Source: an uncultured bacterium
GTDB lineage: Bacteria > Oederibacteriota > PGYV01 > Palsa-1178
NCBI GenBank assembly: GCA_937889595.1
Contig: CALAOR010000076.1
Location: 1 to 64,000, forward strand
DNA length: 64,000 nucleotides
Reading direction: 5' to 3'
The notes under the pieces are model-generated. The model worked only from the letters and a program-made list of their open reading frames with translations. It was not told the DNA's origin and searched no databases. Shown here piece by piece: positions 2,249-38,553 of this stretch. The number at the start of each line of letters is the position of its first letter. Position 1 is the stretch's first letter. Made by a program: the position numbers and the translations under genes.

Positions 2249-2276
2249 TTGACACATGAAAATTCGGGGCTATAAT
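2249..2276 (+). promoter_or_regulatory. Sigma-70-type promoter of the GH9 gene
   Basis: TTGACA (2249-2254) and TATAAT (2271-2276) are both perfect consensus boxes, separated by 16 bases. Transcription would begin near 2283. This rules out the ATG at 2256, which lies inside the promoter, and supports the ATG at 2307. A TATAATTATA palindrome overlaps the -10 box. Confidence 0.75.
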
Positions 2277-2306
2277 TATAGTGGTGAGGAAGAACGAGGA
2301 GAGTAT

Positions 2307-5720: not shown

Positions 5721-6031
5721 AATTTCGGGATTCATTGAAGGCAGAGCGGAGTTTTGGAAGTGATTGAAATTAAACGGGGTTTTCCAGCTTAAAAACCAAT
5801 GATTTTGAGACCTTGTTTTACGATTTGATACCGCATGATTATCATATGACTTAATCTTAAAAATGCCAATAAAATAAGGCACAAACAAGAAAAACCTTGA
5901 TTTATTCATATTTACTGGTAAACTGTCCTAATAGAACGAAACCTTTCGAGGATTTGGTTGTCTTAAACTTGTAGCTTTTTTTTTGACGATTTATTTAAAT
6001 GTTTAAACCACTTTTTAATGAAGGGAAAAAC
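5721..6031. other. Intergenic stretch, no feature recognised
   Basis: These 311 bases lie between the GH9 gene and the next secreted enzyme. They are AT-rich with a T-run at 5976-5984 and weak promoter-like boxes (TTGATT near 5898, TTGACG at 5983-5988), none convincing. No gene, hairpin terminator or dispersed repeat was identified. Confidence 0.5.
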
Positions 6032-8871: not shown

Positions 8872-9082
8872 GTTTTAAAATCTTTAATGCAAGTCCTGCC
8901 CGCAGGTAGTGTGCGGGAATAGGCTGCTTTGTACATACATACCCTTATAGGAAAATATATTTTGCCTGATCCGGGGTCGTATTTCTGCAGGTAATTATTG
9001 AACCCTACGAAAATACGAAAAATATTGCTTGAAAAGCCTTTTCGTACTATACAAATAAGGTAACAATATAATTACAAAAAAC
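8872..9082. other. Intergenic region between divergent genes
   Basis: This is the middle of a 346-base gene-free stretch. It holds a small inverted repeat, TACGAAAA (9006-9013) facing TTTTCGTA (9039-9046). No gene or RNA was recognised. Confidence 0.4.
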
Positions 9083-9111
9083 TTGACTTCTTCTTTCGTA
9101 AATGATAAAAT
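9083..9111 (+). promoter_or_regulatory. Sigma-70-type promoter of the PorV-OmpA gene
   Basis: TTGACT (9083-9088) and TAAAAT (9106-9111) are separated by 17 bases. The start codon at 9149 has a GGAGG (9135-9139) nine bases upstream, so the leader would be about 30 bases. Confidence 0.6.
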
Positions 9112-9148
9112 AAATTCAATATAGCTATGCATTTGGAGGTTTTCCTCA

Positions 9149-11227
9149 ATGGAAAACAACGAAATTTTTCGTAAAAATACGGTATCAACACTGTTGCACC
9201 AAATAATCCCATATTTTTTTATACTATTCCTGCTGGTCCCTTCAACTATTCGATCCGCAAATTTTGGCACAGATACAGCGGAATATCTGAAAATAAACCC
9301 TGAAGCCGGCCCTGCAGGCATGGGTGAGGCATATACAGCTATAGCAGAAGGGACAAATGCGCTTCAGTATAACCCTGCGGGACTTGCCATCATGGATAAA
9401 GGCGAGCTTACTGCGACCGAACTTTTCTGGTTCAATTCCATTTATATGACGCACCTGGCATTTGGATATCCGCTTGATTATGGGTTCGGGGTCGGCGGTT
9501 CATTATTATGGATAAGTTCGGGAAGTTTTGACTCCACAGGCGGAGCAGCGGCCCCTGTCAGTATGGAAGACGGGGTAATAAACATCGGAGTTGGAAAAAG
9601 CATAGGTGAAAACATACATTTAGGCTTAAGCCTGCACGGATTGTATGAACATTTTTCGGCAGGTCCGTCTTTATCAGTTTCTTCAATGGGGTTTTCCACA
9701 GATGCCGGCGCCGTGTTTTACCTGGGTTCAAGAAACCTGACCTTGGGGCTTACAGCCAAAAACATGGGGATCTTATTTGGGAACCTGGACCCGCTGCCCA
9801 TGGAAGCGGCAATAGGGCTCGGCTACAGGCTTTATAACGGTTCTTTTGATTTTTTGAATGTGGCGCTTGATTTTTCCAAGGTTATAAATACGGACAATTT
9901 TTTTGCGGCCCTCGGAGCCGAGGTGTACGTGTTCCAGGCTGTGGCGCTCAGGTTTGGCCTGCGTTACAACAATGCGCTTGGGATGGACAGGGTCAGTTTC
10001 AGTAATATACAGAACATGCTTATTTTCTCGGCGGGTGCGGGTATAAATATAAATGATACTTTTACGGTTGATTATTCCTACACACCTATGGGCGATCTGG
10101 GACAGATACAGAGGATAACTTTGAAAATAAAGTTCGGTGATTCATGGTACGAAAGAAAGATGGCGGAAAAGAATGTCAAGATCGAACCTAAGGCCATTGA
10201 AATACCTGAGGTTAATGTGGCGGGCGGCGAGATAAAAAATGTGTCATTTAAACCGAATGTGCCGCAGGAAAATGTCAAGGAATGGACCCTTGCCATCAAA
10301 ACCTCTGATGGTAAGATCGTCAAGTCATTCTCCGGTGTAGGCGAGGTGCCGAAGACCTTAAATTGGGACGGAACGGATGCGTATGGCCGGATATCCAAGT
10401 CGGACGTAAATTACGTTTTTGATTTCAAGGCAAAAAATGACGCCGGTCAGACTATCAAGACAATAGGCCAGATAGTACAGGCAAAGCAGTTTGATTACAT
10501 GCACGAAGAGGACAAAAAATTCACGCCGCTTAAAGGCGGTGAAATGCTTGTCGCCCCTGTAACTCTTTTAGTGTCATCCGACGCGGAAGAGAGAAAGTCC
10601 GTGCCTTTTGTAATGGTTAATAAGGACATAAAGCAGGTCAAGAACTGGGATTTCGCAATATATGACGGGAACGGCGCGCTTTTAAAGAAATTCTCAGGCG
10701 GGGATATGATACCGTCCTATCTTGTATGGGACGGAAAAGATTCATACGGCAATTATGTGAAGGACTTAAAATCATGCAAATATGTGCTCGACTTGACGGG
10801 CGTTGACGGAAAAAAGGCCGAGATAAAAGACAGGCAGGTGATGAGGGATCCTTTTGTAATATCCGTCGGGTCCAGAAAACTGAAAATGGCGCAGAGGATC
10901 TATTTTGAGAACAACCTTTACGCGATAAATCCACAGATGATGCCGAGATTGGATTCCATAGCGGCGGATATCAGCGGATACAGCAATGTCCAGATATATA
11001 TACAGGGGCACTCTTCCAGCGAGGGCGATACCGCGTATAACATCAAGCTTTCCCAGGACAGGGCAAAATCAGTGCTCCGGTATCTTGTGGAAAAACACAG
11101 GATATCCCCGCTTTCAATTACAACCGTAGGGTACGGCGCCAATATTCCGATAGACAAAGGCACAACTGAAGATGCGAAAATGAGGAACAGAAGGGTTGAA
11201 ATAATAATTATAGGTGAAAAAGAATAA
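9149..11227 (+). CDS. PorV-like outer-membrane barrel fused to an OmpA domain
   Basis: This encodes 692 residues. A signal peptide (about 1-37, ending near IRSA) is followed by a PorV/PorQ-like beta-barrel (about 38-330). Its hallmark start is PEAGPAGMGEAYTAIAEGTNALQYNPAGLA. The middle (about 365-575) has two FlgD-like Ig segments, each with a WDG motif (NWDGTDAYG, VWDGKDSYG). The C-terminus (about 585-692) is an OmpA/peptidoglycan-binding domain with IQGHSSSEG and NRRVEI. PorV acts in type IX secretion as an outer-membrane shuttle for cargo; OmpA domains bind peptidoglycan. The combination in one chain is unusual. The stop overlaps the next gene's ATG (TAATG), so the two are translationally coupled. 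Confidence 0.88.
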   Translation: MENNEIFRKNTVSTLLHQIIPYFFILFLLVPSTIRSANFGTDTAEYLKINPEAGPAGMGEAYTAIAEGTNALQYNPAGLAIMDKGELTATELFWFNSIYMTHLAFGYPLDYGFGVGGSLLWISSGSFDSTGGAAAPVSMEDGVINIGVGKSIGENIHLGLSLHGLYEHFSAGPSLSVSSMGFSTDAGAVFYLGSRNLTLGLTAKNMGILFGNLDPLPMEAAIGLGYRLYNGSFDFLNVALDFSKVINTDNFFAALGAEVYVFQAVALRFGLRYNNALGMDRVSFSNIQNMLIFSAGAGININDTFTVDYSYTPMGDLGQIQRITLKIKFGDSWYERKMAEKNVKIEPKAIEIPEVNVAGGEIKNVSFKPNVPQENVKEWTLAIKTSDGKIVKSFSGVGEVPKTLNWDGTDAYGRISKSDVNYVFDFKAKNDAGQTIKTIGQIVQAKQFDYMHEEDKKFTPLKGGEMLVAPVTLLVSSDAEERKSVPFVMVNKDIKQVKNWDFAIYDGNGALLKKFSGGDMIPSYLVWDGKDSYGNYVKDLKSCKYVLDLTGVDGKKAEIKDRQVMRDPFVISVGSRKLKMAQRIYFENNLYAINPQMMPRLDSIAADISGYSNVQIYIQGHSSSEGDTAYNIKLSQDRAKSVLRYLVEKHRISPLSITTVGYGANIPIDKGTTEDAKMRNRRVEIIIIGEKE

Positions 11228-12312
11228 TGCGGGCCCTGGTGATATATATATTGATCGCCGCGGCCGCAGCCGCAGCCGGCGCAGGATGCCAAAAAGCCGC
11301 TGCAGAGCAGTACAAAAGCCCTGAAAATCTTTTTAACCTGGCGACAGAGGCCATGGTGAAGGGAAACGACGTCCTGTCCATAGACCTTTATTATAAACTG
11401 ATCGATTCATATCCGGATTTCAATAAATACAGGGCGGATTCGATTTACAGGCTCGGGATGCTGCTGTATAAAACGGAGCGTTATGACGAAGCTGAAAAAA
11501 TTCTCGCGCTTTTTGCGGCTAAATTCAAGAATGACGACAGGTTAAGGAATGTTTATGAAAAGCTGATATATATTTACATGCAGGAATTCCATGACGAACA
11601 ACGGGCACAGTCGGTCAGGGCCCTTTATGCGGAGAAATTCAAGGAAAGCCCGGTTTTAAAGGATATTGATAAAACAATAAATATCCTGTCAACCGATGAA
11701 AAGACCGGCTCGGCTGTCCTTGCCATGAACGCGGGAAACATAGGGATAATTAAAATGCTCAAAACCGGTGAAATAGACAGGGAGTTTTTTCCTGTAAGAA
11801 ATTACGTTTTAGTAAGCGTCAAATCCCCGGACGGGAAGTTTGCGGCTGAAAAGAGGGAATTTTCCGGCGATTACAGCCTTTTCTTCGGGGCAATTGGCTC
11901 GAAAATGCAGAGAATAGAAGGCTCAACAGGCGCGTACGCGCCCCAATGGGCGTGGAACAGTAAATACATATTCTTTACATCCATGGATTGGCGGAGCAAG
12001 GAAAGAAGGATCAGGGTTTATGATACAGCCGGGAAAAAAACCCGGGAATTATTCAGGGCAAAAGGCGTGGGCCCGCTTCTGTGCATATCCCCGGATTCGG
12101 CCAAAATAGTTTTCACGTATCTTGACAAACTCTGGATAATGAACAGCGGCGGCAACTCGGTCGCACTGCTCAGCAAAAATATTGATGTGAAAGATATCAG
12201 TATGATAGCATGGTCGCGGGAAGGCGATTCCATAATTTACTCCAAGAAAAACGAAAAAGATGTTTATTACCTGTGTAAACTCGGAAGAAGAGAGATAGAA
12301 GCCATGCAGTAA
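11227..12312 (+). CDS. TPR/beta-propeller lipoprotein (PorE-like architecture)
   Basis: This encodes 361 residues. The signal peptide is alanine-rich and ends in a lipobox GAGC, with Cys21 as the lipidated residue. Residues about 30-160 look like TPR/Sel1-type helices (YRLGMLLYKTERYDEAEKIL). Residues about 185-361 look like TolB/PD40 propeller blades (APQWAWNSKYIFFTS, CISPDSAKIVFTY, IAWSREGDSIIYSKK). The TPR-then-propeller order of a lipoprotein recalls PorE of type IX secretion, which also ends in an OmpA domain; here OmpA is absent but present in the gene overlapped upstream. The assignment as PorE-like is inference from architecture. It probably sits at the periplasmic face of the outer membrane. 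Confidence 0.75.
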   Translation: MRALVIYILIAAAAAAAGAGCQKAAAEQYKSPENLFNLATEAMVKGNDVLSIDLYYKLIDSYPDFNKYRADSIYRLGMLLYKTERYDEAEKILALFAAKFKNDDRLRNVYEKLIYIYMQEFHDEQRAQSVRALYAEKFKESPVLKDIDKTINILSTDEKTGSAVLAMNAGNIGIIKMLKTGEIDREFFPVRNYVLVSVKSPDGKFAAEKREFSGDYSLFFGAIGSKMQRIEGSTGAYAPQWAWNSKYIFFTSMDWRSKERRIRVYDTAGKKTRELFRAKGVGPLLCISPDSAKIVFTYLDKLWIMNSGGNSVALLSKNIDVKDISMIAWSREGDSIIYSKKNEKDVYYLCKLGRREIEAMQ

Positions 12313-18098: not shown

Positions 18099-18761
18099 AT
18101 GGCGGAAATTGACATAGATAAAATGCTTGAACAGAATGAGAAAAAAGACAAGGCGAAAAAAGCAAAATCCTGGATGATGACGCTGGTAATAGCCGGCTGC
18201 GGCGCCGCCGTGCTTGCCATAGCCGGGATCATAATCACCATGCTTATCATCGGCGAGCCGGGCAGTTCTTTTTTTCCGACCACTCCGGGAATAAAGTACG
18301 TCTACAATAAAAAAGGCAAAAATCCGGAAGAAAGGTCCTTCCTGGATAAAAAGGAAAATCTTTACGGGTATGTTTGTTCGGTCCTGAATATAACCGACAA
18401 GGGCTCATACACGACCAGGCAGGAATACTACTGCGTGGACAAAGAAAAAGGCTACGCCAGGCTGGCTTATTCTTTTAACCACGGTCCAAAAGAAAAAGAT
18501 ATTTTTGTGATAATGCCCTACAACATAAAAGACGGCAAACAGTGGAACGCAGGCATGGTAAAGGATAAGGTTGTAAAGGCCGTGATTGTAGGCCGTGAAA
18601 AAATGACGACTCCGGCAGGTGAACTTGAGGCGATCAGGGTTGAATACAAAGCCGCTCCCTATATGGATGAGGTTATCTGGTACGCGAAGGACCTGGGAGT
18701 TGTAAAAGAACAAAATAATCTGACAGCTGACGAGACGTCTTTGATCAGCTCTGGTGAATGA
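18099..18761 (+). CDS. Inner-membrane-anchored protein of unknown function
   Basis: This encodes 220 residues with AGGAGG just before the ATG. A charged cytoplasmic N-terminus of about 26 residues is followed by one membrane segment (about 27-51, TLVIAGCGAAVLAIAGIIIT) and a soluble region of about 165 residues outside. The soluble region has a beta-rich pattern (GIKYVYNKKGKN, IDEVIWYAKDLGVVKEQ-like end) and TTPAGELEAIRVEY, a pattern seen in exported DUF3108-like or lipocalin-like proteins; I cannot name the family. Its stop codon overlaps the ATG of the SprA-like gene (ATGA), so the two are translationally coupled. That makes a supporting role in the same envelope process plausible. Confidence 0.7.
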   Translation: MAEIDIDKMLEQNEKKDKAKKAKSWMMTLVIAGCGAAVLAIAGIIITMLIIGEPGSSFFPTTPGIKYVYNKKGKNPEERSFLDKKENLYGYVCSVLNITDKGSYTTRQEYYCVDKEKGYARLAYSFNHGPKEKDIFVIMPYNIKDGKQWNAGMVKDKVVKAVIVGREKMTTPAGELEAIRVEYKAAPYMDEVIWYAKDLGVVKEQNNLTADETSLISSGE

Positions 18762-21700
18762 TGTTCCTGAAGAAAATCCCTGAAAATACAGATGTCATAC
18801 TGTTCATTCTTGTTGTAATGATCTGTATTTTTATGCCTTTTATTTCCATCGCGGATAATAATCTGGTTATACCTGCCCCGCCCGCAACTGAAGCGCCGGC
18901 TTCCGTAACAGCGCCGGCTTCAGCGACAACGCCGGTTTCAGTGACAGTCCCGGTTTCCGTGACAGCGCCTGCTTCCTTAACAGCGCCTGCTTCCGTGACA
19001 ACTGGGGCCGCAGTCAAACCTGAAAAAGGCCCTGAATTCTTAAAGGCCGAGGCCAAAGGAGTATTGGTTTTTTTGACCTGGGATAAAGCCGGGAAAACAG
19101 ACACGACCTATAATATATACAGGAGCACATCGCCTGAAAAAGGCTTTTTGAAAATAAACAAGGAAGAAGTAAAAGAAAGCGCATATACAGACGGCCGCGG
19201 GACAAGCCTGACCCCGCCTGTAAGCGGAAAACTTTACTATTACAGGATCACATCAGTGGATTTTGGGGTGGAATCACAGGATTCCAAAACAGTGCTGGCC
19301 ACGCCTTTTGCGCCGCTTGGCCCCCCCGACCAGATAACCGTATTGCCGGGTTTTTCTTTTGTTAAGATAAAATGGGTGGAACCGGACGCGTCGGGGAATA
19401 TCGGCGTCAGCGGATATAATATTTACCGGTCCACGCAGCCGGGCATCCTGGCGCGGATAAACCCCGTGACAATTACAGCTTATGAATACGATGACGCGGG
19501 CCTCACAAACGGCGCCAGGTATGATTACATGCTGCAGAGCGTTGACGCGCTGGGGAACACCTCGGCTTTATCCGCTGTTTTTTCAGCCGTGCCTTTTTCC
19601 CTGATATCGTCGCCCAAGAACCTTACGACAACAGCCGCGTCTTCCGAGTCTATAAAACTCATATGGGACGCGCCTGACGGCGGCGGCACATACGGCATAT
19701 CGGGATATAATATTTACAGGTCGACCCAGGCCGGGGTTTTTTCCGATAAGCCCATAAATGAAAAGATGACAAAGGGCCTTAAAACGCCGGAGAACAGGCT
19801 GTTTTATTTTGATAATATGATAAATTCCTGGTTCCAGCCATTGCCCGGCAATACTTACTATTATAAAATAATACCCGTTGATTTCCACGGGAATACTGGC
19901 GCTGCAAGCGATACCATTACGGGCGCGGTGCCGGTCATAGAAGTCAACAAACAAGGCATAATATCCGCGGACATATCCGAGTACGGGTTACCGCCGGAGT
20001 CAAAACTCACGCTTTCCGGAAGAAAAACGCTTTCCATGGCATATACCCATACATGGTGGAAAAACAACACCGTGGCCCAGACAGAAAAATTCGATATAAC
20101 GCAGAAATTGAAACTGAACCTTAAGGGGAACATAGGCACAAAAATAAACGTGGACGTCAATTATGATGAAGATACGCTGACCGACGAATACACAAAAATA
20201 TCCATAAGCTATGCGGGCGAAAAGGACGAAACCCTGCAGGAGGTTTCATTCGGCGACTTGACCCTCGACCTGCCCGCCACGAGGTACCTAAGCTACGCGC
20301 CGCAGAAACTTTTCGGTATCCGCGGCAAGGCAAAGATAGGCGACAAACTGACAATAACCGCCCTCGCGGCCCAGACAAAAGGCATCAATGACACACAGGT
20401 TTTCATCGGAAAAGTGCGCAAGAAACAGACAAACCTAAGGGACGGCGTGGATATATACGATACGGCTTATATCAAGAACACTTATTATTATATAACAAGA
20501 AATGTTCCATTGCAAAAAATCCAGCCCGGGTCATTGAAGATCTACAGGGATGACTATGGCGCGACCCTGGTTGATTTAAATACGCGTCTTTCCACGCCGA
20601 ATAACACTTATCGTTTCAGGGAGCTGTATTCAGGCGTGGATTTTATTGTTGATTACACTACAAATGTAATAAAATTTAATGTTCCCATAGCAGACACCAA
20701 CATACTTGCAGTGGGATATAAGCTCGCAGACGGAACTCCGATCGGCTTGGACTTCAGCGGGAATGTGGACATACAGGAGGCAAAGCTTAGTTCAAATACC
20801 GACGGCACTACGGACGACGGGCATCATCTTATTCAGAACGGCACACAGACCAGCACCCAGGCGGATTTATCGCACAGGGTTTTAAGTTACTATAATATGG
20901 GTGATACAAATATAAATAATCCTGTTACAGACACGGGCGGGTTTAAGATAATAATAACCAAACCGGATGACACGGGCAGTTATTTTATACCGCAGCCATG
21001 GGAACCCAAAGCGTCTGATATTTATACAATCGATACGGATTTCGGAATATTGATGTTCAAGAGTTATGCTCCTTTTGCCAAACTACAGTATGATAATAAT
21101 TCGCCGGGTGCCCAGTATAACGGGGTGGAAGACGGGACCCAGGATGATGCTTATAAATCCAATGCCCCAAAATCCCTTTTCAAGATACACCTTAATTATA
21201 ATTTCAATGTTTCTTCATACAAACTGGATAACTCGCCGCTTGTGGTCGCGAGCGAAAGGGTGCTTATAAACGGACTGCTGAAAAAAAAGGATGCGGATTA
21301 CACCATTAATTATGAAGCCGGGGAAATTACTTTTAATAAAGATATCGAGGCCGGCATAACCAGCAATACCGAGGTAAAGATATCCTATGAATACCTGCCG
21401 TTTGTCGGCGCGACAAGCAGCAACCTTTTCGGCGGCAGGATGGATTATGCCCTTCTTGACAATTTAAAACTCGCGTTAACAGGGCTTTATAAGACCTCAA
21501 ATGCCGGGACCACGGTCCCGGACGCGCGCTCCACCATAACGTCCTTAAGCACCCCCTATAATTCGCTCGTGATCGACGGGAACGTTGATTTTGTTTTAAA
21601 CAGGGAAAACGTGAACGCCATAATAAACGCGCTTCCGCTGTTAAATAACAGCGATCTGCCCGTGGATTTCAAGTTCACAGCCGAGACCGCGTACAGCGAC

Positions 21701-24700
21701 TTGAACCCAAATGTATACCAGCAGACATTGTCCAATGGAAAGGTTGAGAACGGCCCTGCCATGATAGATGACATGGAATCAGCCGATATTACAACATCAG
21801 CCGACACGTTGGTAAATCATTGGTTCCCGGCATCCAAGCCCTCGATCGTGACTGACACTAATCCGGGAAATAGGGATTTCATGGTTAGAAGCAACGTAAC
21901 TGAAGCCGGGAACCAGCCGACATCATCGGACCCTACAGGCGTAAATTCGTCGGTTCAGATGCTTAAACTTAACTACAGCGGGCTGACGGATCAAAAGTGG
22001 GATTCTTTCAGGTTTGTCCTGAACTCATCGGGTGAGAGTTTGAACCAGTACAATACACTTGAGATAGCTGTTAAGGTTTCCACTGACCAGCCCGTAAAAA
22101 TGAGCCTTGATGTGGGAATAATAAGCGAGGACTCAAACGGGACCGGTGAGTTTAAGGTTAATGATCCCGGTGTTGCAAACGGCGAAAGCGAAGATTCCGA
22201 TAAAAATGGAATTTTGAACACCGGCGAGGATATTGGCATTTACCCTGGTATATATAGGGGTTTTCCAGGCAGTACTCCGGCGTATTGGGGCGCAGGGAAC
22301 GGCGGAAACATCCCGGACACGGAAGATATGAATAACAATACACGGCTTGACATGGGTGAGTCGTATTATCACTTTGGTCCAGAAGGCTTGTCATCGAATT
22401 TGGCCAACAGCAACAACATTGTCCACCCTGAACTTTTACTGCAAAACAGCGATAACTGGGTTGATATAAAAATACCCCTTAAGGATTATACTTATATTGT
22501 TGGTTCCGTGGCACACGATAATATAGGGATGAATAAGGACCAGTATATGTCATTTATAAAACATTTGAGGATCAATTTCAAGGGTTCAAGCGCTACCCCG
22601 GCATCGGGCACCATAAAGATACAGACAATAAAGTTCACGGGCAATTCATGGAACCTTGAAACTCCGCCGAATGAATCTGACAGGGCGGGAAATCCGGTTG
22701 TTGTTGATGCCTCAAAACTGAACATTGAATCAATAAATCAAAATATATTGGATGCTAAAAAGGCACCTATAACTGATTATACTCCGAACCTGGATTATTT
22801 TGTCTGGACAACCGAGAATGATAAAAAATTTGAAACATCGCTTAAAATGACGTATAAGATATCAAACCTTGACCAGGGCAGCGCTGATAATCTGCCGTTA
22901 TATTACGCGACCAAGTCGCTTAATGCCTCGGGCGGTTACGATTTTCACGCGTATAAATATCTTAAAATGGACGTATATTACAAGACACAGGATCCCCAGG
23001 GCGGCAACGGGCGTGTTATATTCTTAAGAGTAGGAAGCGGAAACAATACTGATACTATCCAGCGATATTACCAGTATAATGAGCAGCTTGATGATATAAA
23101 AACCGGGGGATGGCGCACAATAGTATTCGTCCTGGACGGTTCCGACGGAAAGAGAAGTTCCACGCCAACCCAGCCCAATCTTAGGCAGGCGCAGTATATA
23201 TCAGTAGGCTTTATCAACCCCAATATGACACAGCCGTCGGAAGTAATGTATGTTAATAACATCAGGCTGACCGACGCGCAATCCTCGACAGGACGCTCAA
23301 CCTTTATAAATACGGTCATGAATGTCACGGGGGTCGGGAACTTAAACCACACTTACGAAGATAAAGAAGCGACTTTTTATACATTGGCAGACGCGGGCAG
23401 GGCCGATATAAAACAGCATGAGATATCAAACAACCTTTCTTTTAACTACACGCAACTGCCGTTCCTGCCCGTTACATTCAACTATTTCAAAAATTCAAAA
23501 TTCCTTGACGGACCCAATAAAAATGACCCTTCATATACTCAGGACAACCAGGTTTACGACGTTTACAGCGAAGGCTACACTAATGTTGTAAGTTTTTCCC
23601 TTATACCGGACCTGAATATCTCGAACGGGACAACAGTCAGGTCAGACGATTATATTTATCCGGGCGCCGCTTCATTCGAGAGCAATCTGACAAAATCCAT
23701 GATTTTCAATCCCACTCTTTCATGGAAGGCGCCGGCTAATTTGTTCTTCATTCCTTTAGGCTCCAATAATTTTGACGGAAAGATCACGTTTAACAACCGG
23801 GAAACCACATATAGCAGCGTCGATCTGACTTTTACCGCGGGGACATCATATTATTACAACTGGCGCAATGACAGGAACCAGGATTACAAATGGATCGGGG
23901 CATACAGCTTCCTGGGGATCTCAGTCCAGCCTTCATACGAGTATATGAGGGGCGATGAAATAGGCTATCTCGCCTCAAAATATGTTTATTACCAGGATTC
24001 AATCACGGACCCCCATTACCTGGTCGACAAGTATTATATCTTGAACACGCAGATAATGCCTAAGCTCAGTATCAGCTACCCTGACGCGTGGATATTCTCT
24101 CCACAGATAAACTATAACAATGAATACAGGATGGACTACACGCAGTCATTCCTGGACAATCACGGCAAACTTGACGTATCCACGGGCATGGCCCTGAAAA
24201 AACTGCTGGGCTGGATGCCCGGCATAAGCAGGTATTCTTTCACCGTTGAAAGCACACAGCATTTTGAGGAAATAAGCTATCCCGGCTCTTTCGCAAAATA
24301 CAACAGCATGCCTTTTGAAAGCAGGTGGAATATTTTCCTGTGGAAGATGCTGGGCGACGAACATGAGATAGCGCGCTATGAAACTGCCGCGAAGAACGGC
24401 GCGTTTATTATATCTCATAACTTAAGCCTGGAAGAGATAAATATAATGTCGGCCGTGGCATTCACCCCGGTTGCCTCATATTCGCTTAACAGGACCTTTT
24501 ACTCGCAGGGCGCCGTGCGCCAGTTCAGCGAGGGTTTCACATTATCCGCGAATAACATAAATATCAATAATGTGACCATACCGCTGCCGTTCCTGCAGGA
24601 CCTGGTATCCGGCCAGAAGGTCACGGGCAGTTATTCCTATGTGCGGAATCTGACCAAAGACACAAATAAGGTCATAACACTGGATGACATCACGAATAAT

Positions 24701-25153
24701 TTCTCCGTGCAGCTGCCTTATGCCTCAAAGAACGGGTTAAACGGCGTATTCAGCCTGACAGGCAGCAGGGATGACAAGAGACAGGGGTACTTAAGGAGCT
24801 GGAGCGGGACCTTAACGCCATCGCTTACATTGAATTTCAAATACAGGCAGACGGCCCCGATAACATTTCCCAGCTGGCTGTGGCTTTTAGGCGACAAGAC
24901 TTTCCGCATGGAGCAGAACCTTGACCTTGGAATTAATATCAGCGTAAAATACACCATGGGCGGGGACAATGACCTGAACATAAACAAAGCCAATGCAAAG
25001 GAATATACTTTAAGCACCACGGCTGCGTATAAGATCCTACAGAACCTGACTGCCACCCTGACCATGTCATACGGGCATGAGGATAACAGCTGGAAAACCG
25101 ACCAGGAATTTGACAGTTTCATGATAAGCCTTGGAGGAGTCATAGAATTTTAG
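18758..25153 (+). CDS. sprA: SprA/Sov-like giant outer-membrane protein with N-terminal FN3 domains
   Basis: This encodes 2131 residues. A signal sequence (about 1-32) is followed by a repeat-rich APASVT segment (about 46-81), three fibronectin type III domains (about 91-391, each with a NIYRST motif), and then a region that reads like SprA. It has KLKLNLKGNIGTKINVDVNY (about 443-462), then SISYAGEKDETLQEVSFGDL and QKLFGIRGKAKIGDKLTITA (about 515), and MIDDMESADI (about 1001), which matches the IDD(F/M)E stretch of SprA. The C-terminal half is strongly beta-stranded and ends in aromatic GVIEF, typical of an outer-membrane barrel. SprA/Sov forms the translocon of the type IX secretion system. 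Family length is about 2300-2500; the FN3 modules are an addition I do not know from Bacteroidetes. Assignment rests on motif recall, not a search. Confidence 0.8.
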   Translation: MMFLKKIPENTDVILFILVVMICIFMPFISIADNNLVIPAPPATEAPASVTAPASATTPVSVTVPVSVTAPASLTAPASVTTGAAVKPEKGPEFLKAEAKGVLVFLTWDKAGKTDTTYNIYRSTSPEKGFLKINKEEVKESAYTDGRGTSLTPPVSGKLYYYRITSVDFGVESQDSKTVLATPFAPLGPPDQITVLPGFSFVKIKWVEPDASGNIGVSGYNIYRSTQPGILARINPVTITAYEYDDAGLTNGARYDYMLQSVDALGNTSALSAVFSAVPFSLISSPKNLTTTAASSESIKLIWDAPDGGGTYGISGYNIYRSTQAGVFSDKPINEKMTKGLKTPENRLFYFDNMINSWFQPLPGNTYYYKIIPVDFHGNTGAASDTITGAVPVIEVNKQGIISADISEYGLPPESKLTLSGRKTLSMAYTHTWWKNNTVAQTEKFDITQKLKLNLKGNIGTKINVDVNYDEDTLTDEYTKISISYAGEKDETLQEVSFGDLTLDLPATRYLSYAPQKLFGIRGKAKIGDKLTITALAAQTKGINDTQVFIGKVRKKQTNLRDGVDIYDTAYIKNTYYYITRNVPLQKIQPGSLKIYRDDYGATLVDLNTRLSTPNNTYRFRELYSGVDFIVDYTTNVIKFNVPIADTNILAVGYKLADGTPIGLDFSGNVDIQEAKLSSNTDGTTDDGHHLIQNGTQTSTQADLSHRVLSYYNMGDTNINNPVTDTGGFKIIITKPDDTGSYFIPQPWEPKASDIYTIDTDFGILMFKSYAPFAKLQYDNNSPGAQYNGVEDGTQDDAYKSNAPKSLFKIHLNYNFNVSSYKLDNSPLVVASERVLINGLLKKKDADYTINYEAGEITFNKDIEAGITSNTEVKISYEYLPFVGATSSNLFGGRMDYALLDNLKLALTGLYKTSNAGTTVPDARSTITSLSTPYNSLVIDGNVDFVLNRENVNAIINALPLLNNSDLPVDFKFTAETAYSDLNPNVYQQTLSNGKVENGPAMIDDMESADITTSADTLVNHWFPASKPSIVTDTNPGNRDFMVRSNVTEAGNQPTSSDPTGVNSSVQMLKLNYSGLTDQKWDSFRFVLNSSGESLNQYNTLEIAVKVSTDQPVKMSLDVGIISEDSNGTGEFKVNDPGVANGESEDSDKNGILNTGEDIGIYPGIYRGFPGSTPAYWGAGNGGNIPDTEDMNNNTRLDMGESYYHFGPEGLSSNLANSNNIVHPELLLQNSDNWVDIKIPLKDYTYIVGSVAHDNIGMNKDQYMSFIKHLRINFKGSSATPASGTIKIQTIKFTGNSWNLETPPNESDRAGNPVVVDASKLNIESINQNILDAKKAPITDYTPNLDYFVWTTENDKKFETSLKMTYKISNLDQGSADNLPLYYATKSLNASGGYDFHAYKYLKMDVYYKTQDPQGGNGRVIFLRVGSGNNTDTIQRYYQYNEQLDDIKTGGWRTIVFVLDGSDGKRSSTPTQPNLRQAQYISVGFINPNMTQPSEVMYVNNIRLTDAQSSTGRSTFINTVMNVTGVGNLNHTYEDKEATFYTLADAGRADIKQHEISNNLSFNYTQLPFLPVTFNYFKNSKFLDGPNKNDPSYTQDNQVYDVYSEGYTNVVSFSLIPDLNISNGTTVRSDDYIYPGAASFESNLTKSMIFNPTLSWKAPANLFFIPLGSNNFDGKITFNNRETTYSSVDLTFTAGTSYYYNWRNDRNQDYKWIGAYSFLGISVQPSYEYMRGDEIGYLASKYVYYQDSITDPHYLVDKYYILNTQIMPKLSISYPDAWIFSPQINYNNEYRMDYTQSFLDNHGKLDVSTGMALKKLLGWMPGISRYSFTVESTQHFEEISYPGSFAKYNSMPFESRWNIFLWKMLGDEHEIARYETAAKNGAFIISHNLSLEEINIMSAVAFTPVASYSLNRTFYSQGAVRQFSEGFTLSANNININNVTIPLPFLQDLVSGQKVTGSYSYVRNLTKDTNKVITLDDITNNFSVQLPYASKNGLNGVFSLTGSRDDKRQGYLRSWSGTLTPSLTLNFKYRQTAPITFPSWLWLLGDKTFRMEQNLDLGINISVKYTMGGDNDLNINKANAKEYTLSTTAAYKILQNLTATLTMSYGHEDNSWKTDQEFDSFMISLGGVIEF
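18893..19000 (+). repeat. Six 18-bp tandem repeats in the SprA-like gene
   Basis: Six units of 18 bases (first unit GCGCCGGCTTCCGTAACA at 18893-18910) encode APASVT-like hexapeptides between the signal sequence and the first FN3 domain. They form an Ala/Pro/Thr spacer, and the copy number may vary between strains. Confidence 0.85.
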
Positions 25154-25167
25154 GAGGGAACTTTAAT

Positions 25168-28100
25168 ATGAAAAAGGTTTTTATTGCCGCTGTAATGTTA
25201 TGCGTTTTTTCCGCGGTTGTTACGGCTGACTGGGATGCTTCAATGGTGCGCGTTGAATTTGACGGGCCGCAGCTGATAGTAAACTGGCTGCCGGTGACGG
25301 ACCCGGCGCCGGTTACCTACACGGTTTTATTCGCCGTATACAGGTCGGGAGTGACACTCACAAGCGACGCGCAGTGGAACGCGCTAACGGCCCAGGCCGA
25401 TTCCTTGCCGCAATCGGTAAGCATATATGCCGATGTCCTGCCGCTGACCTATACGGCTTTTTACAGGATAAAAAAATACACGAATCCTTCTGACGGGATA
25501 TATTCAAAGACCGTAAGTTCGTCGAGCCCGGGAAGCATTACTGATCATACAGGCTATGATTCAAAGGTATTTTTGGCGTGGGTTAAGTCCGCTGACCCGG
25601 ATGTCCTGTATTACAACGTATACAGGTCCACAAACCCGGGGCTTTTTGACGCTGTTAAAATGGGAAACGTCAGCGACACAAAAATAGTGGATTATTCAGC
25701 GGCCAATCTTATTGGATATTTTTACCGGATACAGCCTGTGTCTGATGTGGAAGGGTCCTTTTCCGGATATGTGAATGTCACGCCTTTTGCCGCGCCTTTT
25801 GCGCCCTCATATGTTTATGTTTCACCTTCAGCAGACGGGACTTCTGTCAGCCTGACATGGACAGCCACAGCGCTCAGGGGTTCATATGACATATCAGGCT
25901 ATAATATTTACAGGTCAACCTCGCCTATAACAATCGCGGACGCGCCTGTTGAAACAGCTAACAGTTATTATCTGGATTCAAGCCTTATACCCGGAACATG
26001 GTATAATTACCAGGTAAAAACTGTGGACATCATGTCAAATACTTCAGCGCCTTATTCGTTCACTGTGTTTACGACGGGCCCGCCTTTTGCGCCGGTTAAT
26101 GTCAGGGCACAAAGTGCGAACGCGTCATTAGCGGTTGTCTCTTGGGACAATAACAAAAGCAGTGAGGCTGTAATAAGATATCACATATATGAGACAGGTC
26201 TTGAGAAAGGAACGGCCCTGGCCAGCCCGTATACGGACAGTACGGCGGTTTCAGGGGGGAAATATTTGTACACGGTAAAGGCAGAAAACCCATCCGGATT
26301 AAGCCCTTTTTCTTCGGCTGTTGCAGTAACTGTCATGCCTGACGCGCCACTGGACCTTAAAGTGCTGCCGGGCGTTTCGCCCGGGTCCTTGGACTTAAGC
26401 TGGCAGCCGATTGCCCCAATTGAAAATGTTACAGGTTATAATATCTACAGGGCCTTGACCCCTCTGTCATTTAATTTCAGCACACCTATAGTCACCAATG
26501 TGACGCTTTATGCTGATATTGATGTCGCGTCAGGGCAGAATTATTTTTATACGATTTCGGGCTTCTCCTCAGTGGAAGGCGCAATGTCAATCACGGCAAG
26601 CGCTGTGCCGGTTTCAAGGACCGTACAGGTTTCAGGGCTGACTGCCACGGCTTTCAACGGTTACGCCCTGCTTGACTGGGATAATGCAGGGCCGGCGTAC
26701 GGCGTTACAGGTTATAATATATACAAAAGCACGGACCCTTCACCGGTTTTATTTACATACTCGTCCTACGTGACACCGGCAGCAGGGACTTTAAGCAGCG
26801 GCTATGTGACCGGGCTTAATACGCTTGGCATACCATACTACCTGAAGGTGACGGCTTTGAATATTTACGGGGAAGGCGATACTGTAAACGCCTCCTATAT
26901 AGACATTACCATGACATCCGAGGCGGTTGTTGAAAAACCGGAAAATGTGACGGCTACCAGCCAGGGAGACGGGCAGATAAACCTGGCATGGAACGCCGCG
27001 TCTGATTCAAGGGTAACTATTTATAATGTTTACAGGAGCACTTTTGCCGGTTCCTATAATTACGCGTCGCCATTAACTTTTACCGGAAATAATTCATATA
27101 TTGATAGAACCACAACCGCGGCAATAGGCGTACCGTATTACTATGAGATTAGGTCATATGGAGCTGTATCTGAAAGCGCATCTTCGGCTGAAGTCAGCGC
27201 CACGGCATTTTACCGGCCTTATCCGGTTAATAACCTTACTGCTTCATACATAAATGGAAATATCTGGCTTTTATGGAGCGCACCCGCCCAGAAAGGCACC
27301 TATGATTTTCCAACTGAAGAATACAGGGTTTACAGAAGCACAACGCTTGTTTTTCCCGGCACCCCTTTACCCGGGGGCGGCTCCCTGACAGCGGAACAAT
27401 TCGTGGACTCAACAATTGACCCTGCGCCACAAACGTATTATTATAAAGTCACTGCATTTGATGCCCATGGGAATGAGAGCATTAATCCGGTAATTAGTTC
27501 CTCGATAGAAATTTCTTCCCCGCAGAAGCCGCCGGCAACGCTCGTGGCCCTGGCCGGGGACGGCAAAGTGGTGCTGATATGGAAAATGGTATCGCCGCTG
27601 TATTACAATATTTACCGGAGGGAAGCTTCAAATCCGGTTTACGGCCAGCCGATCGCGTACAATGTATCTTCCACGCTTAAAGATTATACGGACCAGAATT
27701 TGGCGGACGGCACGACTTACTATTACATGATAAAGGCGGTCAATGCCGCGGGCGAAGGCCCGGCGTCCATGGAAGTATCGGCAACGCCGTACATTGCCGT
27801 TACTTTGCCGGCCGGCGCGGCCGTGACAGCCGTTATAGCGGATAAAAAGGAAGTATTGGTTTCATGGTCTCCGGCAATTTCGGGCAGTCCTTTCACGCTT
27901 GCAGGGTATTATGTAATGAGGAGTTCTGACGGAGGAGGAAGTTACAGCACACCGCCGATCACTCTTACAACGCAGACAAATTATCTGGACAACTCGACCG
28001 AATGGAATAAAACATATTATTATATCGTAAAAACACTTGATTCAGGCGGAAATATAGACGGCATATACAAGCCCGTTAGTATTACCCTGCCTTTACCCGA

Positions 28101-28407
28101 AAATAAGATCAGAGTTTTCAGGAACCTGATGAACCTGGCGCTGGGAGACACCCTGAAACTGCGGTATGTCCTGACCCAAAACGGCAGGATCAAGCTCAGG
28201 GTTTACACGCTGTCAGGTTCGTTTGTGACAGAACTTGTTGACATAAATATAACGGACAGTATTGATTCCCAAAATCCCTATGAAAGCGCGGACCTGTATT
28301 GGGACGGGACGAATAAAGCCGGCCAAAAGGTGGCGTCAGGCGTGTACATCCTGTCGCTTGAAACGCCGAAATCAAGGGTTATAGAAAAAGTGGCGGTTGT
28401 GAAATAA
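25168..28407 (+). CDS. Secreted protein with about ten FN3 domains and a sorting-like C-terminus
   Basis: This encodes 1079 residues with a signal peptide (about 1-21, ending VTADW). About ten fibronectin type III-like modules follow, several with the exact motif GYNIYRST or a near copy (YNVYRSTNP, GYNIYKSTDP, YNVYRSTFAG, YRVYRSTTL). The last 100 residues (about 975-1079) form a FlgD-like Ig domain with WDGTNKAGQKVASGVYIL, ending VIEKVAVVK, as in type A sorting domains. It starts 14 bases after the SprA-like gene and shares its FN3 type, so it is a good candidate for cargo or a surface partner of that protein. No enzymatic domain is seen. Confidence 0.85.
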   Translation: MKKVFIAAVMLCVFSAVVTADWDASMVRVEFDGPQLIVNWLPVTDPAPVTYTVLFAVYRSGVTLTSDAQWNALTAQADSLPQSVSIYADVLPLTYTAFYRIKKYTNPSDGIYSKTVSSSSPGSITDHTGYDSKVFLAWVKSADPDVLYYNVYRSTNPGLFDAVKMGNVSDTKIVDYSAANLIGYFYRIQPVSDVEGSFSGYVNVTPFAAPFAPSYVYVSPSADGTSVSLTWTATALRGSYDISGYNIYRSTSPITIADAPVETANSYYLDSSLIPGTWYNYQVKTVDIMSNTSAPYSFTVFTTGPPFAPVNVRAQSANASLAVVSWDNNKSSEAVIRYHIYETGLEKGTALASPYTDSTAVSGGKYLYTVKAENPSGLSPFSSAVAVTVMPDAPLDLKVLPGVSPGSLDLSWQPIAPIENVTGYNIYRALTPLSFNFSTPIVTNVTLYADIDVASGQNYFYTISGFSSVEGAMSITASAVPVSRTVQVSGLTATAFNGYALLDWDNAGPAYGVTGYNIYKSTDPSPVLFTYSSYVTPAAGTLSSGYVTGLNTLGIPYYLKVTALNIYGEGDTVNASYIDITMTSEAVVEKPENVTATSQGDGQINLAWNAASDSRVTIYNVYRSTFAGSYNYASPLTFTGNNSYIDRTTTAAIGVPYYYEIRSYGAVSESASSAEVSATAFYRPYPVNNLTASYINGNIWLLWSAPAQKGTYDFPTEEYRVYRSTTLVFPGTPLPGGGSLTAEQFVDSTIDPAPQTYYYKVTAFDAHGNESINPVISSSIEISSPQKPPATLVALAGDGKVVLIWKMVSPLYYNIYRREASNPVYGQPIAYNVSSTLKDYTDQNLADGTTYYYMIKAVNAAGEGPASMEVSATPYIAVTLPAGAAVTAVIADKKEVLVSWSPAISGSPFTLAGYYVMRSSDGGGSYSTPPITLTTQTNYLDNSTEWNKTYYYIVKTLDSGGNIDGIYKPVSITLPLPENKIRVFRNLMNLALGDTLKLRYVLTQNGRIKLRVYTLSGSFVTELVDINITDSIDSQNPYESADLYWDGTNKAGQKVASGVYILSLETPKSRVIEKVAVVK

Positions 28408-30376: not shown

Positions 30377-32074
30377 ATGAACAAAATACTTATAACGGCA
30401 GGCGTTTTGATATATATGTGTTTATTTTCGCGCATCAGTGCTGATGTCTGGACTGACTATCACGGTACCACAGGCACGGCCGGTATTGACACCGGTTCGA
30501 TGTTTAATGAGTTTTCAGTCTTGAAACCTCCGTTGGTTTTATCGTGGTCGCAGACAGATTGGAATGGTCCCGGAATGACTTCGGTATTCGGTTCGGCACC
30601 AGTGGTTGCAAATGGTATTGTATATCTTGGTGCGGAAGATCATAATGGAACCGGCACAAGCCATCTTTTGTATGCGTGGGACACATCCACCGGGAACGGC
30701 ATTCCGGGATTTCCTGTTGGAGTTTTGGGCGATGTAACGACCGCTCCTGCGGTTGCCAATGGAATAGTATATGTTGGTTCGAAAAATGACGGGTTATATG
30801 CTTTTAATGCCACGACAGGAGCAATTATCCCTGGGTTTCCGTCTAACACAGGAGGTAATACATATACATCCCCGGCCGTATCTAAAGGTATTGTGTATGT
30901 GACAGGAAATGGGAAAAAATTATACGCTTTTAATGCCGCTACAGGTGCGGCAATTGCCGGATTCCCTGTTGGGGCTGACTTGTTCTCAAATCCGGTTATC
31001 ACAAACGGAAAAATATATGAGGTGTCGGGTGTTGACGGTAAATTATACGCATGGAATGCCTTAACTGGGTCTGCCATAGTTGGATTTCCTATAACATTAA
31101 ATCCGGTCGGCGGGTTTAGTCAGCCTATTGTGGCAAACGGGATCGTTTATGTTGGAGCGAGCGTATATAGCGCTTCTGGTTATAAGTTGTTTGCTTATAA
31201 TGCGGCAACAGGTGCCGGGATAGCTGGTTTTCCCGTTACTATGAATGAACCAGGATATGGTGCTCCATCAGAACCGGCTGTGGCTAATGGGGTTGTGTAT
31301 ATTACCATATATAATGGATCAGTGCCCGATACAAAAATATATGCCTTTAGTGCTTCAACTGGGGCAATAATGCCGGGTTTTCCGGTTGATATGAACGATG
31401 TTTGTTGGACATCGCCGAGGATTGCGAATGGCTACTTATATATCAACAATAGTTATAATAAAGTGTACGCAATTGATATTGCGGATGGAAGTATTGTATG
31501 GCAATATCTGATGCCGATAAATGGGTCGTTTGCAGGGGCACCCTACGGAGGTCCTGTTATTGCGGAAGATAAACTATTTGTTCCATGCGATTACGGCGAT
31601 GGGATCTTTGTATTCTGCGTTCCCAGCCCTACTGTTACGCCGACGATAATAATAACTGCAACTTACACACCGACAGTTACGCCAAGTATTACAGTTTCGT
31701 TGACTTTGACCGTTACTGCTACAATAACTGTGACGGGGACAATAACTTCCACTTACACAATTACACCAACGCCTCTGCCGAAGTTCAGACTTGAGGTGAA
31801 AGGCAATTATCCCGCCCCGTTCAGCGGCTATACGGATATAGTTTTTTTTGTTTCCAAATCGGCGAGTGTAGAAGTCACAATATTTACCGTATCAGGTGAA
31901 GTGGTGGTAAAAAAGCAGGCGTATTACCCCGCCGGTTTCGGAAAATATAGTTGGGATGGGTCAAACGGAGGCGGGAAAAAGGTGTCATCGGGTACTTATT
32001 TATATCGCGTGGAAGCAGTAATTGATAATGAAAAGCAAACAAGTAAAATACTAAAAATGACCTGTGTGAGGTGA
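30377..32074 (+). CDS. Secreted PQQ-like beta-propeller protein with sorting-like C-terminus
   Basis: This encodes 565 residues. Signal peptide (about 1-22, ending RISAD), then PQQ/pyrrolo-quinoline-like propeller blades (about 40-410) with repeating units such as VVANGIVYLG, LYAFNATTGA and the recurrent I.GFPV motif (IPGFPV, IAGFPV, IVGFPI, IMPGFPV). A short Thr/Pro linker (about 417-468) and a FlgD-like domain (about 470-565) with YSWDGSNGGGKKVSSGTYLY follow. No cofactor-binding residues can be assigned, so it is more likely a structural or binding propeller than a dehydrogenase. The codons look more A/T-rich than the neighbours (not counted), and an IS remnant lies just upstream, so a recent arrival is possible. 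The stop overlaps the next gene's GTG. Confidence 0.85.
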   Translation: MNKILITAGVLIYMCLFSRISADVWTDYHGTTGTAGIDTGSMFNEFSVLKPPLVLSWSQTDWNGPGMTSVFGSAPVVANGIVYLGAEDHNGTGTSHLLYAWDTSTGNGIPGFPVGVLGDVTTAPAVANGIVYVGSKNDGLYAFNATTGAIIPGFPSNTGGNTYTSPAVSKGIVYVTGNGKKLYAFNAATGAAIAGFPVGADLFSNPVITNGKIYEVSGVDGKLYAWNALTGSAIVGFPITLNPVGGFSQPIVANGIVYVGASVYSASGYKLFAYNAATGAGIAGFPVTMNEPGYGAPSEPAVANGVVYITIYNGSVPDTKIYAFSASTGAIMPGFPVDMNDVCWTSPRIANGYLYINNSYNKVYAIDIADGSIVWQYLMPINGSFAGAPYGGPVIAEDKLFVPCDYGDGIFVFCVPSPTVTPTIIITATYTPTVTPSITVSLTLTVTATITVTGTITSTYTITPTPLPKFRLEVKGNYPAPFSGYTDIVFFVSKSASVEVTIFTVSGEVVVKKQAYYPAGFGKYSWDGSNGGGKKVSSGTYLYRVEAVIDNEKQTSKILKMTCVR

Positions 32075-34041
32075 ATGTGAAAAAAATCCTCATTTTAGTC
32101 TTTATTGTTATGTATATTTCAGCGATAGTTCTCGCCGGATCCGAACTTGCCGGCACTACCAGCACCAATTCCCTTAAGATACGGCCCTTTGCCCGGGCGG
32201 CCGGGTTGGGGGATGCTTTTGTTTCTGTTTCAGAGGGGGCTGCAGGGCTTTATTACAATCCGGCCGGGCTTAATGCTTTGTCCGGATATGATTTTCAGGT
32301 TGACCATGTGAACTGGTTCGGTTCCATTAATGACGAGTTTTTGGCCGCGGCCTTGCCTTCGCCTTTTTTACCGAATGCCAAGATAGGTTTCGGGGTTTTA
32401 TGGTTCTCGGCGGGGAATATTCCTGATACTTCGGAACTGCCTACGGGCGCGCTTGAAACTATCGATTACTCTGCCTTGGTTAGCGGCTCTACCAATCCTG
32501 TGGCTTATTCCTTGCGGCTGGCTTACGCTGCAGACATCGTCGAGAACTTGGCGCTTGGCGCTGTTTTGAAATATGACGGGGAAAACATCAGCCGTTTTAA
32601 CGGCTCTTCGCTGGGGTGTAATATCGGCGGAATATACAGCTTACGGCCTAACGGGCACCTTATTCGTTTCGGCCTTACCCTGACAAACATCGGCACCGAC
32701 CTTAAACTCTCGGATGAAGCCTTTAAAATGCCGCTGTCCATGGAACTCGGGGCGTCCGATGAGATGCTCATATTCAACAACAAGCTGCTCGTCACAATGC
32801 AGGGGATGTTCCAGTCCGATTACGATACGCAATACGGCATAGGCGCCGAATACTGGTTTTACAACCTGGCATGCATAAGGCTTGGCTATAAATTTGGGGC
32901 CTTTAACCAGCCTTCTTTCGGGGCCGGGGTGAAATACAATAATTTCCAGTTCGACCTTGCATACCTTAAGTATGACGGCCTCGGTGATACGTTCAGATTC
33001 TCGCTCTCCTACGCCTTAAGGCAGCCGCCCGGCATAGGCCTCATGTGCGTGCCGCAGGTATTCTCGCCGAACAGCGATAAGATCGCGGATTATACATTTT
33101 TCAAGCCTGTCCTGAAGACAAAGGAAGTTTTCAAAAGCGCAAAGATAAGCCTTTATAACCCGGCCGGCACCTTGCTGATAGCGAGCATGCCCATGAACGC
33201 GGATCCTTTAAAATACACGTCGTGGAACGGCGTTGTGAACAAGGTTGTCCTGCCTGACGGCGCTTATAGGGCGATGGTTACGGCCGAGTTCGCGGACGGA
33301 AGCGCCACATCCGCTCCAGTGCCTGTAATCATTGACAACACGCCGCCTGAACTTTCCGTGGACGCGCAGCCTCGTGTCCTGAAAAAAGGGCCAAAGGGCG
33401 CGCTTTTGATACCTTCGGCATTTACTTTCTACGCCAACGACCGCAGCGGCATAGGCGGCTGGCAGCTTGTGATAAGGGATAAGGATAATAACGTGTTTTT
33501 TAATGTAGGCGACAAGGGCGCGCCGCCGCTTTCCTATATTTGGGACGGCAAGGGTAACAGCGGCGATTATGTCTCCACGAGTGACATATATAACTTCACC
33601 TTTATCTCCTATGATACCGTTGGCAACAAAACCCAGACTGCGCCCCAGTCGCAGGTTGTCCTACTAAGGGAAGTAAAGATGTTGTTTTTCTCAAACGCGC
33701 TATTTGAGTCAAACGCGGCTGACGTGAAAATATCGCAGTATAAATCATTGCAAGCACTCAAAAAGGCCGTTGAAAAATATCCGGAATTCACCATTACGGT
33801 CAAAGGTTACACTTCAAACGAACCGTCAATAAACGCAAAATACCCAACAAACGCCGCGCTCTCGCAGGCACGCGCCGACGCTGTGAAGTTCTTTATGGTG
33901 ACGCTTCTGGAATTTGACGCGTCAAGGATAAAGGCGATAGGCCTTGGTGAAGCAGACCCCATAGCCCCTAACGACACTCAGGAGGGCAGGGACAAGAACG
34001 GCAGGGTCGAGATAACCATAAAAACGACGGCATACGAATAG
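32071..34041 (+). CDS. PorV-like outer-membrane barrel fused to an OmpA domain (second copy)
   Basis: This encodes 656 residues from GTG 32071, overlapping the upstream stop; GTG 32077 is an alternative. Signal peptide (about 1-24), then a PorV/PorQ-like barrel (about 28-325) beginning SLKIRPFARAAGLGDAFVSV and containing GLYYNPAGLN. A middle section (about 330-540) carries VFSPNSDKIADYTFF and a FlgD-like YIWDGKGNSGDYV. The C-terminal OmpA domain (about 545-656) has FTITVKGYTSNE and KNGRVEITI. It follows a secreted protein with a sorting-like C-terminus, matching the idea that PorV-type proteins serve such cargo. Role in the outer membrane is inferred from family; the exact substrate is unknown. 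Confidence 0.87.
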   Translation: MNVKKILILVFIVMYISAIVLAGSELAGTTSTNSLKIRPFARAAGLGDAFVSVSEGAAGLYYNPAGLNALSGYDFQVDHVNWFGSINDEFLAAALPSPFLPNAKIGFGVLWFSAGNIPDTSELPTGALETIDYSALVSGSTNPVAYSLRLAYAADIVENLALGAVLKYDGENISRFNGSSLGCNIGGIYSLRPNGHLIRFGLTLTNIGTDLKLSDEAFKMPLSMELGASDEMLIFNNKLLVTMQGMFQSDYDTQYGIGAEYWFYNLACIRLGYKFGAFNQPSFGAGVKYNNFQFDLAYLKYDGLGDTFRFSLSYALRQPPGIGLMCVPQVFSPNSDKIADYTFFKPVLKTKEVFKSAKISLYNPAGTLLIASMPMNADPLKYTSWNGVVNKVVLPDGAYRAMVTAEFADGSATSAPVPVIIDNTPPELSVDAQPRVLKKGPKGALLIPSAFTFYANDRSGIGGWQLVIRDKDNNVFFNVGDKGAPPLSYIWDGKGNSGDYVSTSDIYNFTFISYDTVGNKTQTAPQSQVVLLREVKMLFFSNALFESNAADVKISQYKSLQALKKAVEKYPEFTITVKGYTSNEPSINAKYPTNAALSQARADAVKFFMVTLLEFDASRIKAIGLGEADPIAPNDTQEGRDKNGRVEITIKTTAYE

Positions 34042-38450: not shown

Positions 38451-38479
38451 TTGACATAAAAAAAATATTATGTTAAATT
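38451..38479 (+). promoter_or_regulatory. Candidate promoter of the PorV/flagellar operon
   Basis: TTGACA (38451-38456) is followed after 17 bases by TAAATT (38474-38479) preceded by TG, an extended -10 arrangement. The upstream ATG at 38470 lies inside this promoter, which supports GTG 38554 as the real start. The rest of the 38259-38553 gap holds a small hairpin near 38296-38317 (GGTTTTC/GAAAACC). Confidence 0.5.
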
Positions 38480-38553
38480 TAAGTACTTGCAAAGTTCATA
38501 TAATTGCAACAGGTTTTTACATATTGGAATATTATACGCATCGGGAGGCAATT

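Follow-up and report, generated by a model that had tools for sequence, protein, structure and literature searches.

The literature on the type IX secretion system (T9SS) ties SprA, its outer-membrane translocon, to Bacteroidota or the FCB superphylum (PMC4793230, PMC11205867). From experiments in F. johnsoniae it was deduced that SprA depends on the GldLM energy chain to release cargo, and a review describes GldLM as exclusive to Bacteroidetes (PMC9389320). Here, we describe a gene for an SprA/Sov-type protein at 18758-25153 of a 64,000-nucleotide stretch of DNA (the window), which comes from a metagenome-assembled genome of candidate division FCPU426, also called Goldbacteria. According to the accessible part of a paper on this group (PMC7031533), Goldbacteria lie near Elusimicrobia and Firestonebacteria, have many cellulases, and bind and degrade cellulose; that part describes no secretion system for the cellulases, and type IX secretion appears there in the reference list only. 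We conclude that the gene probably encodes the SprA-type translocon of a type IX-like system in Goldbacteria, with PorV shuttles, C-terminal sorting domains (CTDs) as tags and a differently powered release. This conclusion draws on SprA homology, PorV-family membership, CTDs, conservation across the phylum, co-occurrence of SprA with CTDs and no detectable GldL, GldM or GldN, all of which were computed.

The sequence-only reading of this DNA had called the 18758-25153 product SprA/Sov-like, and profile searches bear this out. The three motifs that it quoted are found in the translation, and the equivalog model TIGR04189 (SprA/Sov; curated cut-off 200 bits) matches the protein in four stretches (E=5.5e-55, 186.4 bits). 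Three placed stretches cover profile positions 96-244, 526-789 and 1085-1328 (of 2319); therefore, the match is not confined to the barrel end. A Pfam scan of the product found FN3 alone, and a phmmer search of the PDB with the single protein gave titin/FN3 matches only; these stem from the FN3 domains at the N-terminus and are an artefact, which was cured by an orthologue profile. This profile, made from 21 Goldbacteria orthologues, matched the solved SprA of F. johnsoniae (PDB 6h3i) at E=1.7e-49, with profile positions 371-1471 corresponding roughly to SprA 151-1580. TIGR04189 also matched every one of the 21 orthologues, at best with E=8.7e-80, and SprA_N (PF14349) was found by Pfam in five of them. 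Profile-profile comparison of Goldbacteria SprA with 29 SprA proteins from other phyla aligned 1558 columns, reaching the C-terminus (E=4e-181). An invariant Phe (F2131) ends all 21 aligned orthologues, as is typical of outer-membrane barrels. When the protein was scanned with Pfam and NCBIfam, together with 20 orthologues, no LptD-type, autotransporter or other unrelated large barrel family matched. Thus, the SprA match extends beyond the barrel and no unrelated barrel family fits better. These comparisons indicate that the product is an SprA homologue by descent, far beyond the barrel.

The same reading had counted four PorV-like proteins and four secreted proteins with CTDs in the window. 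All four of the former resemble the PorV family, and three of them passed the cut-off of the PorV/PorQ family model NF033709 (90 bits), of which the 38470-40653 protein falls short. The T9SS-specific PorV equivalog gave 67.9 bits against a cut-off of 250 bits. The 9149-11227 product is a putative shuttle or anchor. The stop of this PorV-OmpA fusion gene overlaps the start of the next gene (11227-12312), and the TPR-propeller protein encoded there was not matched by the PorE profile NF052230. PorE is described as having TPR, propeller and OmpA domain types; the products of these two genes jointly bear all three and recall a split PorE.

The four CTD proteins also stood. The curated cut-offs (23 bits for TIGR04183, 27 bits for FlgD_ig) were reached by the 30377-32074 protein only, and the CTD of the 25168-28407 protein gave 14.9 bits with FlgD_ig, below cut-off. 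Leave-one-out profiles made from CTDs of the same genome recovered all four, with E from 9e-9 to 9e-14 at a nominal database of 3000 (9e-14 for 2256-5720, 5e-12 for 5999-8533). Por_Secre_tail (PF18962) at E<=0.001 matched 21 of the 22 scored candidates in the source genome (74 in a first look), and the genome total is at least 21. The predicted cellulase with a sorting domain was likewise recovered as the GH9 protein at 2256-5720, which would be exported via SprA.

SprA and CTDs also occur together outside Goldbacteria. We compared 240 genomes, 45 from Goldbacteria and 195 from other phyla, possibly including members of the FCB group or Bacteroidota. SprA-positive genomes were those with strong orthologue-profile matches outside the FN3 part. 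The list was drawn by hand when the CTD list was already known, but its membership rule used SprA matches only and it was fixed before the co-occurrence table was computed. In the other phyla, 59/195 genomes were SprA-positive. At least one sorting domain was found in 57 of these 59 and in 15 of the 136 SprA-negative genomes (Fisher p=1.7e-32), and five or more in 52/59 and 3/136, respectively. Every SprA locus fetched from other phyla (38/38) encodes a long homologue, at E 5e-95 or better. TIGR04189 matched in 61 of the 63 other-phylum genomes tried, which include the genome G106 and three genomes added for CTDs without a strict SprA call; 44 were over the cut-off, with up to 1131 bits. Dozens of other-phylum genomes pair SprA with CTDs without a recognisable copy of the known motor.

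From these data we infer a transport function, a shuttle role for the PorV-family barrels and a replacement motor. Sec would export the cargo to the periplasm, and the cargo would then pass through the SprA channel. The shuttle barrels would recognise the CTD, and several of them would be tethered to peptidoglycan by their fused OmpA domains. Among the cargo would be surface enzymes such as the GH9 cellulase. In Goldbacteria, the GldL/GldM motor and GldN ring of Bacteroidota are absent or unrecognisable, and therefore release from the translocon would be powered differently. The best candidate power source may be a Ton/Agl-type motor encoded together with PorV and a large TPR protein. Several ExbB/TolQ-type proteins are present in Goldbacteria, and one operon of the source genome (on C64, Table 1) contains a PorV-family protein over the NF033709 cut-off (112.9 bits). 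The order PorV-TPR-ExbB-ExbD-ExbD-TonB is kept in families f1, f4, f5, f6, f10 and f11, and partly in f9. We regard the C64-type operon as a candidate motor that may power SprA, because PorV and CTD genes are in the operon and there is no other known motor. Its 1041-aa TPR protein scored 114 bits with NF052312 (SprE/PorW; cut-off 250) but 307 with YbgF, a result that may reflect TPR repeats only. The operon was seen at L141, L142-L150, L155, L156, L172 and L173. A second operon, at L138 (C75:92500-104500) 4646-11118, encodes a TPR protein of about 990 aa and ExbB-ExbD-TonB, and was also seen at L151, L152, L153, L161, L165, L168 and L169; in the source genome, its TPR and ExbB genes are separated by one for a TonB-receptor-like barrel (L138 6434-8146).

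Several points weigh against a type IX-like system of this kind. The TIGR04189 score of the window protein is just under the curated cut-off, the PorV family of barrels is broad and not specific to T9SS, and the co-occurrence counts ignore phylogenetic kinship. No gene of the candidate motor adjoins sprA. The ExbB loci retrieved from f7, f8, f15 and f16 did not show the operon order, so that the operon is not universal in the phylum; either another ExbBD set would serve elsewhere, or the motor idea is wrong. The motor searches, in contrast, fit a differently powered system: GldM was found in 0/45 Goldbacteria genomes and GldN likewise in none; within the 240-genome set, both were found in G106 only (3.4e-108 and 2.1e-30, respectively), and GldL was credible in G106 only (2.6e-57, whole model). 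No SprA-positive genome of the set has a credible GldL, GldM or GldN. The strong matches in G106 to all three indicate that the searches work, although the profiles are derived from Bacteroidota and very divergent versions could escape them. A further point against the system is that no PorU was found in the source genome by the curated model NF033707.

G106 is a complete genome, and it has no detectable SprA and one Por_Secre_tail match. Weak GldL matches in 22 genomes (3 Goldbacteria; E 1e-2 to 4e-4, <=21 bits) were rejected, as they cover the coiled coil only, lack the N-terminal membrane part and often lie within long unrelated frames. The only C25 peptidase match of the source genome (C10:37729-39003), a gingipain-like protein with a propeptide domain, CBM3 and CTD, was also rejected as PorU, with 84 bits against the cut-off of 420. 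C25 peptidases are found in only 4/45 Goldbacteria genomes, and therefore this protein appears to be cargo rather than a core sortase. At its locus (L051, C10:30000-49000), the C25 gene region at 6854-11344 is flanked by two large proteins that resemble the GH9-CTD protein of the window. The sequence-only reading had looked to PorU, PorL, PorM and PorN elsewhere in the genome for support, and none of these four was credibly found.

These gaps would be explained if Goldbacteria had a complete canonical T9SS whose GldK, GldL, GldM and GldN have diverged beyond the reach of Bacteroidota profiles. SprA itself is divergent here, at 186 bits over 2131 aa, and with GldL being short and GldM of moderate length, a like divergence could put them below threshold. 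However, no GldM, GldN or full-length GldL was detected either in the 44 genomes of other phyla with an SprA over the cut-off. Because the motor is missing also where SprA scores high, its absence does not follow the degree of SprA divergence. The confinement of the weak GldL matches to the coiled coil and the restriction of GldLM to Bacteroidetes in the review cited above speak in the same direction. Thus, we consider a hidden canonical T9SS unlikely.

It is also conceivable that the SprA-like barrel has another role, in export or assembly of lipopolysaccharide (LPS) or another envelope polymer, and that the CTD proteins exit by another way. The main support for this comes from an LptF/LptG permease gene pair, mostly divergent, within a few genes of sprA in 25 loci (14 Goldbacteria, 11 other phyla). 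Examples are L050:2956-5219, L032:3196-5441, L099 and L101. In the window, O-antigen-ligase-like and heptosyltransferase-like genes precede sprA. However, the homology spans the translocon well beyond the barrel, and the nearly perfect co-occurrence of SprA and CTD across phyla is not predicted by a role in LPS. An envelope-polymer role is therefore quite improbable, clearly more so than a hidden canonical T9SS.

The SprA-type gene is not peculiar to the source genome. Among named genomes, the only close relative is an FCPU426 contig, with 65% identity in the best segment and collinear neighbours. SprA was found in 40/45 Goldbacteria genomes and in 24 of the 25 high-quality ones, and the phylum's own SprA profile detected at least fragments in nearly all the remaining genomes; TIGR04189 scores of 200-205 bits were reached in 3/45. 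All 28 Goldbacteria SprA loci placed in a tree (FastTree, conserved region, midpoint-rooted) form one clade with support 1.0, suggesting vertical inheritance and not recent transfer. Furthermore, sprA sits in a syntenic block common to independent Goldbacteria genomes. These data indicate that the SprA-type system is a core trait of Goldbacteria. Assembly contamination or recent horizontal acquisition from Bacteroidota, which the description of T9SS from Bacteroidota or the FCB superphylum only (PMC4793230, PMC11205867) might suggest, is refuted by the shared syntenic block, the monophyly of the 28 loci and the presence of SprA in 40/45 genomes.

Table 1. Features of the window and of the candidate motor operon, with profile scores.
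Feature	Position	Strand	Support
GH9 cellulase, Thr/Pro linker, C-terminal YPNP sorting domain; putative cargo	2256..5720	+	Glyco_hydro_9 9.5e-48; TIGR04183 21.2 bits (below cut-off)
Secreted protein, Thr/Pro linker and CTD; putative cargo	5999..8533	+	TIGR04183 15.1 bits (below cut-off)
PorV-family barrel with FlgD-like Ig and C-terminal OmpA peptidoglycan-binding domain	9149..11227	+	NF033709 100.5 bits; PF00691 1.4e-19
N-terminal TPR and TolB-like propeller	11227..12312	+	TIGR03302 31.8 bits; TIGR02800 20.2 bits; TPR_19
220-aa single-transmembrane protein, weak DUF3108-like C-terminal domain	18099..18761	+	PF21347 21.9 bits (cut-off 27)
SprA/Sov-type outer-membrane translocon	18758..25153	+	intact open reading frame, 2131 aa
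Domains of the 18758..25153 product: hydrophobic N-terminal export signal; FN3-like; SprA-homologous	residues ~90-390 (FN3-like); from ~410 (SprA-homologous)		
Secreted FN3-array protein, CTD-like C-terminus	25168..28407	+	fn3 E=2.3e-20; PorZ C-terminal match 19.7 bits
Beta-propeller protein with CTD; putative cargo	30377..32074	+	TIGR04183 27.5 bits; FlgD_ig 33.4 bits, 4.5e-8 (both passed)
PorV-family, FlgD-Ig and OmpA fusion, directly after CTD protein gene	32071..34041	+	NF033709 142.7 bits; PF00691 8.4e-15
PorV-like with FlgD-Ig	38470..40653	+	NF033709 70.4 bits (below cut-off); FlgD_ig 33.1 bits
PorV-family with FN3 domain	40663..42321	+	NF033709 90.8 bits; fn3 3e-11
Operon: CTD-ending protein, PorV, 1041-aa TPR, ExbB, ExbD, ExbD, TonB-like, 305-aa protein	source genome C64:60000-72000 (L141), 2-9464		

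The genes next to sprA are partly conserved. The upstream gene at 18099-18761 overlaps the start of sprA by 4 bases, and a gene of this type precedes sprA in 8 Goldbacteria loci. Directly downstream, an FN3-array protein with a CTD-like end is encoded in 16 Goldbacteria loci; the one in the window (25168-28407) appears to be a conserved companion of sprA, and may be cargo or else serve as an accessory component at the surface (cf. the PorZ CTD). ComF-like genes follow sprA in 17 of the fetched SprA loci. In family f16 (L032, L033, L034, L035, L037, L039, L040), genes for a histidine kinase and a LytTR response regulator precede sprA, unlike in the window. Farther from sprA, the window has flagellar genes (flgF/G, flgA, flgH, flgI, rod-binding and flgK by Pfam) at 42341-50369. 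Together with the GH9 protein and the position of Goldbacteria outside the FCB superphylum, they agree with the earlier description of a flagellated, cellulolytic host outside the usual lineages.

A set of SprA, PorV and CTDs without recognisable GldL, GldM or GldN separates the translocon from the motor. This means either that the motor is dispensable or that another motor acts, and it suggests a way in which Goldbacteria might export their cellulases. More tentatively, SprA, PorV shuttle and tag may be an ancient and widespread module, older than and independent of GldKLMN, which in Goldbacteria would work with a Ton/Agl-type proton motor that has its own PorV and an SprE-like TPR protein, the motor having been swapped in evolution; we regard this as possible, though it falls short of being likely.

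How, then, does this system compare with those already known? The sequence-only reading had taken it for a divergent branch of type IX secretion. The SprA/PorV/CTD module stood, and is found across the phylum and elsewhere; the known energy chain was not found. Since the tested features GldL, GldM, GldN and PorU failed, it is a variant and not a standard T9SS; it is not simply type IX in another phylum, but an SprA/PorV/CTD module without the known energy chain. In contrast to the T9SS of Bacteroidota, no GldL, GldM or GldN and, by the curated model, no PorU was detected in Goldbacteria, PorV is fused to OmpA, and the host is flagellated and belongs to another phylum. Compared with F. johnsoniae SprA (6h3i), the Goldbacteria protein carries N-terminal FN3 domains and is at a level of about 20-25% identity. 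The PorV-family proteins of the window and C64 score far below the T9SS equivalogs NF033710 and NF033711 and bear extra FlgD-Ig, OmpA or FN3 domains, whereas the broader family model NF033709 accepts three of those in the window and the one from C64. The C25 peptidase shares its catalytic family, propeptide domain and CTD with gingipain/PorU, but it carries CBM3 and stays far below the PorU cut-off. The AglRQS-Glt gliding machine of Myxococcus comprises one TolQ/ExbB-type and two TolR/ExbD-type proteins, a TonB-domain protein and TPR proteins (PMC3169522). The PorV-TPR-ExbB-ExbD-ExbD-TonB operon has the same kinds of parts, but in Goldbacteria a single operon holds them all, along with a PorV-family barrel and a protein that ends in a CTD, and none of the C64 operon proteins matched an Agl/Glt-specific family. 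As in the T9SS of Bacteroidota, PorV-family partners and CTD-bearing secreted enzymes are encoded in the same Goldbacteria genome as SprA, and cellulases as putative cargo resemble what is reported for the T9SS of Cytophaga hutchinsonii.

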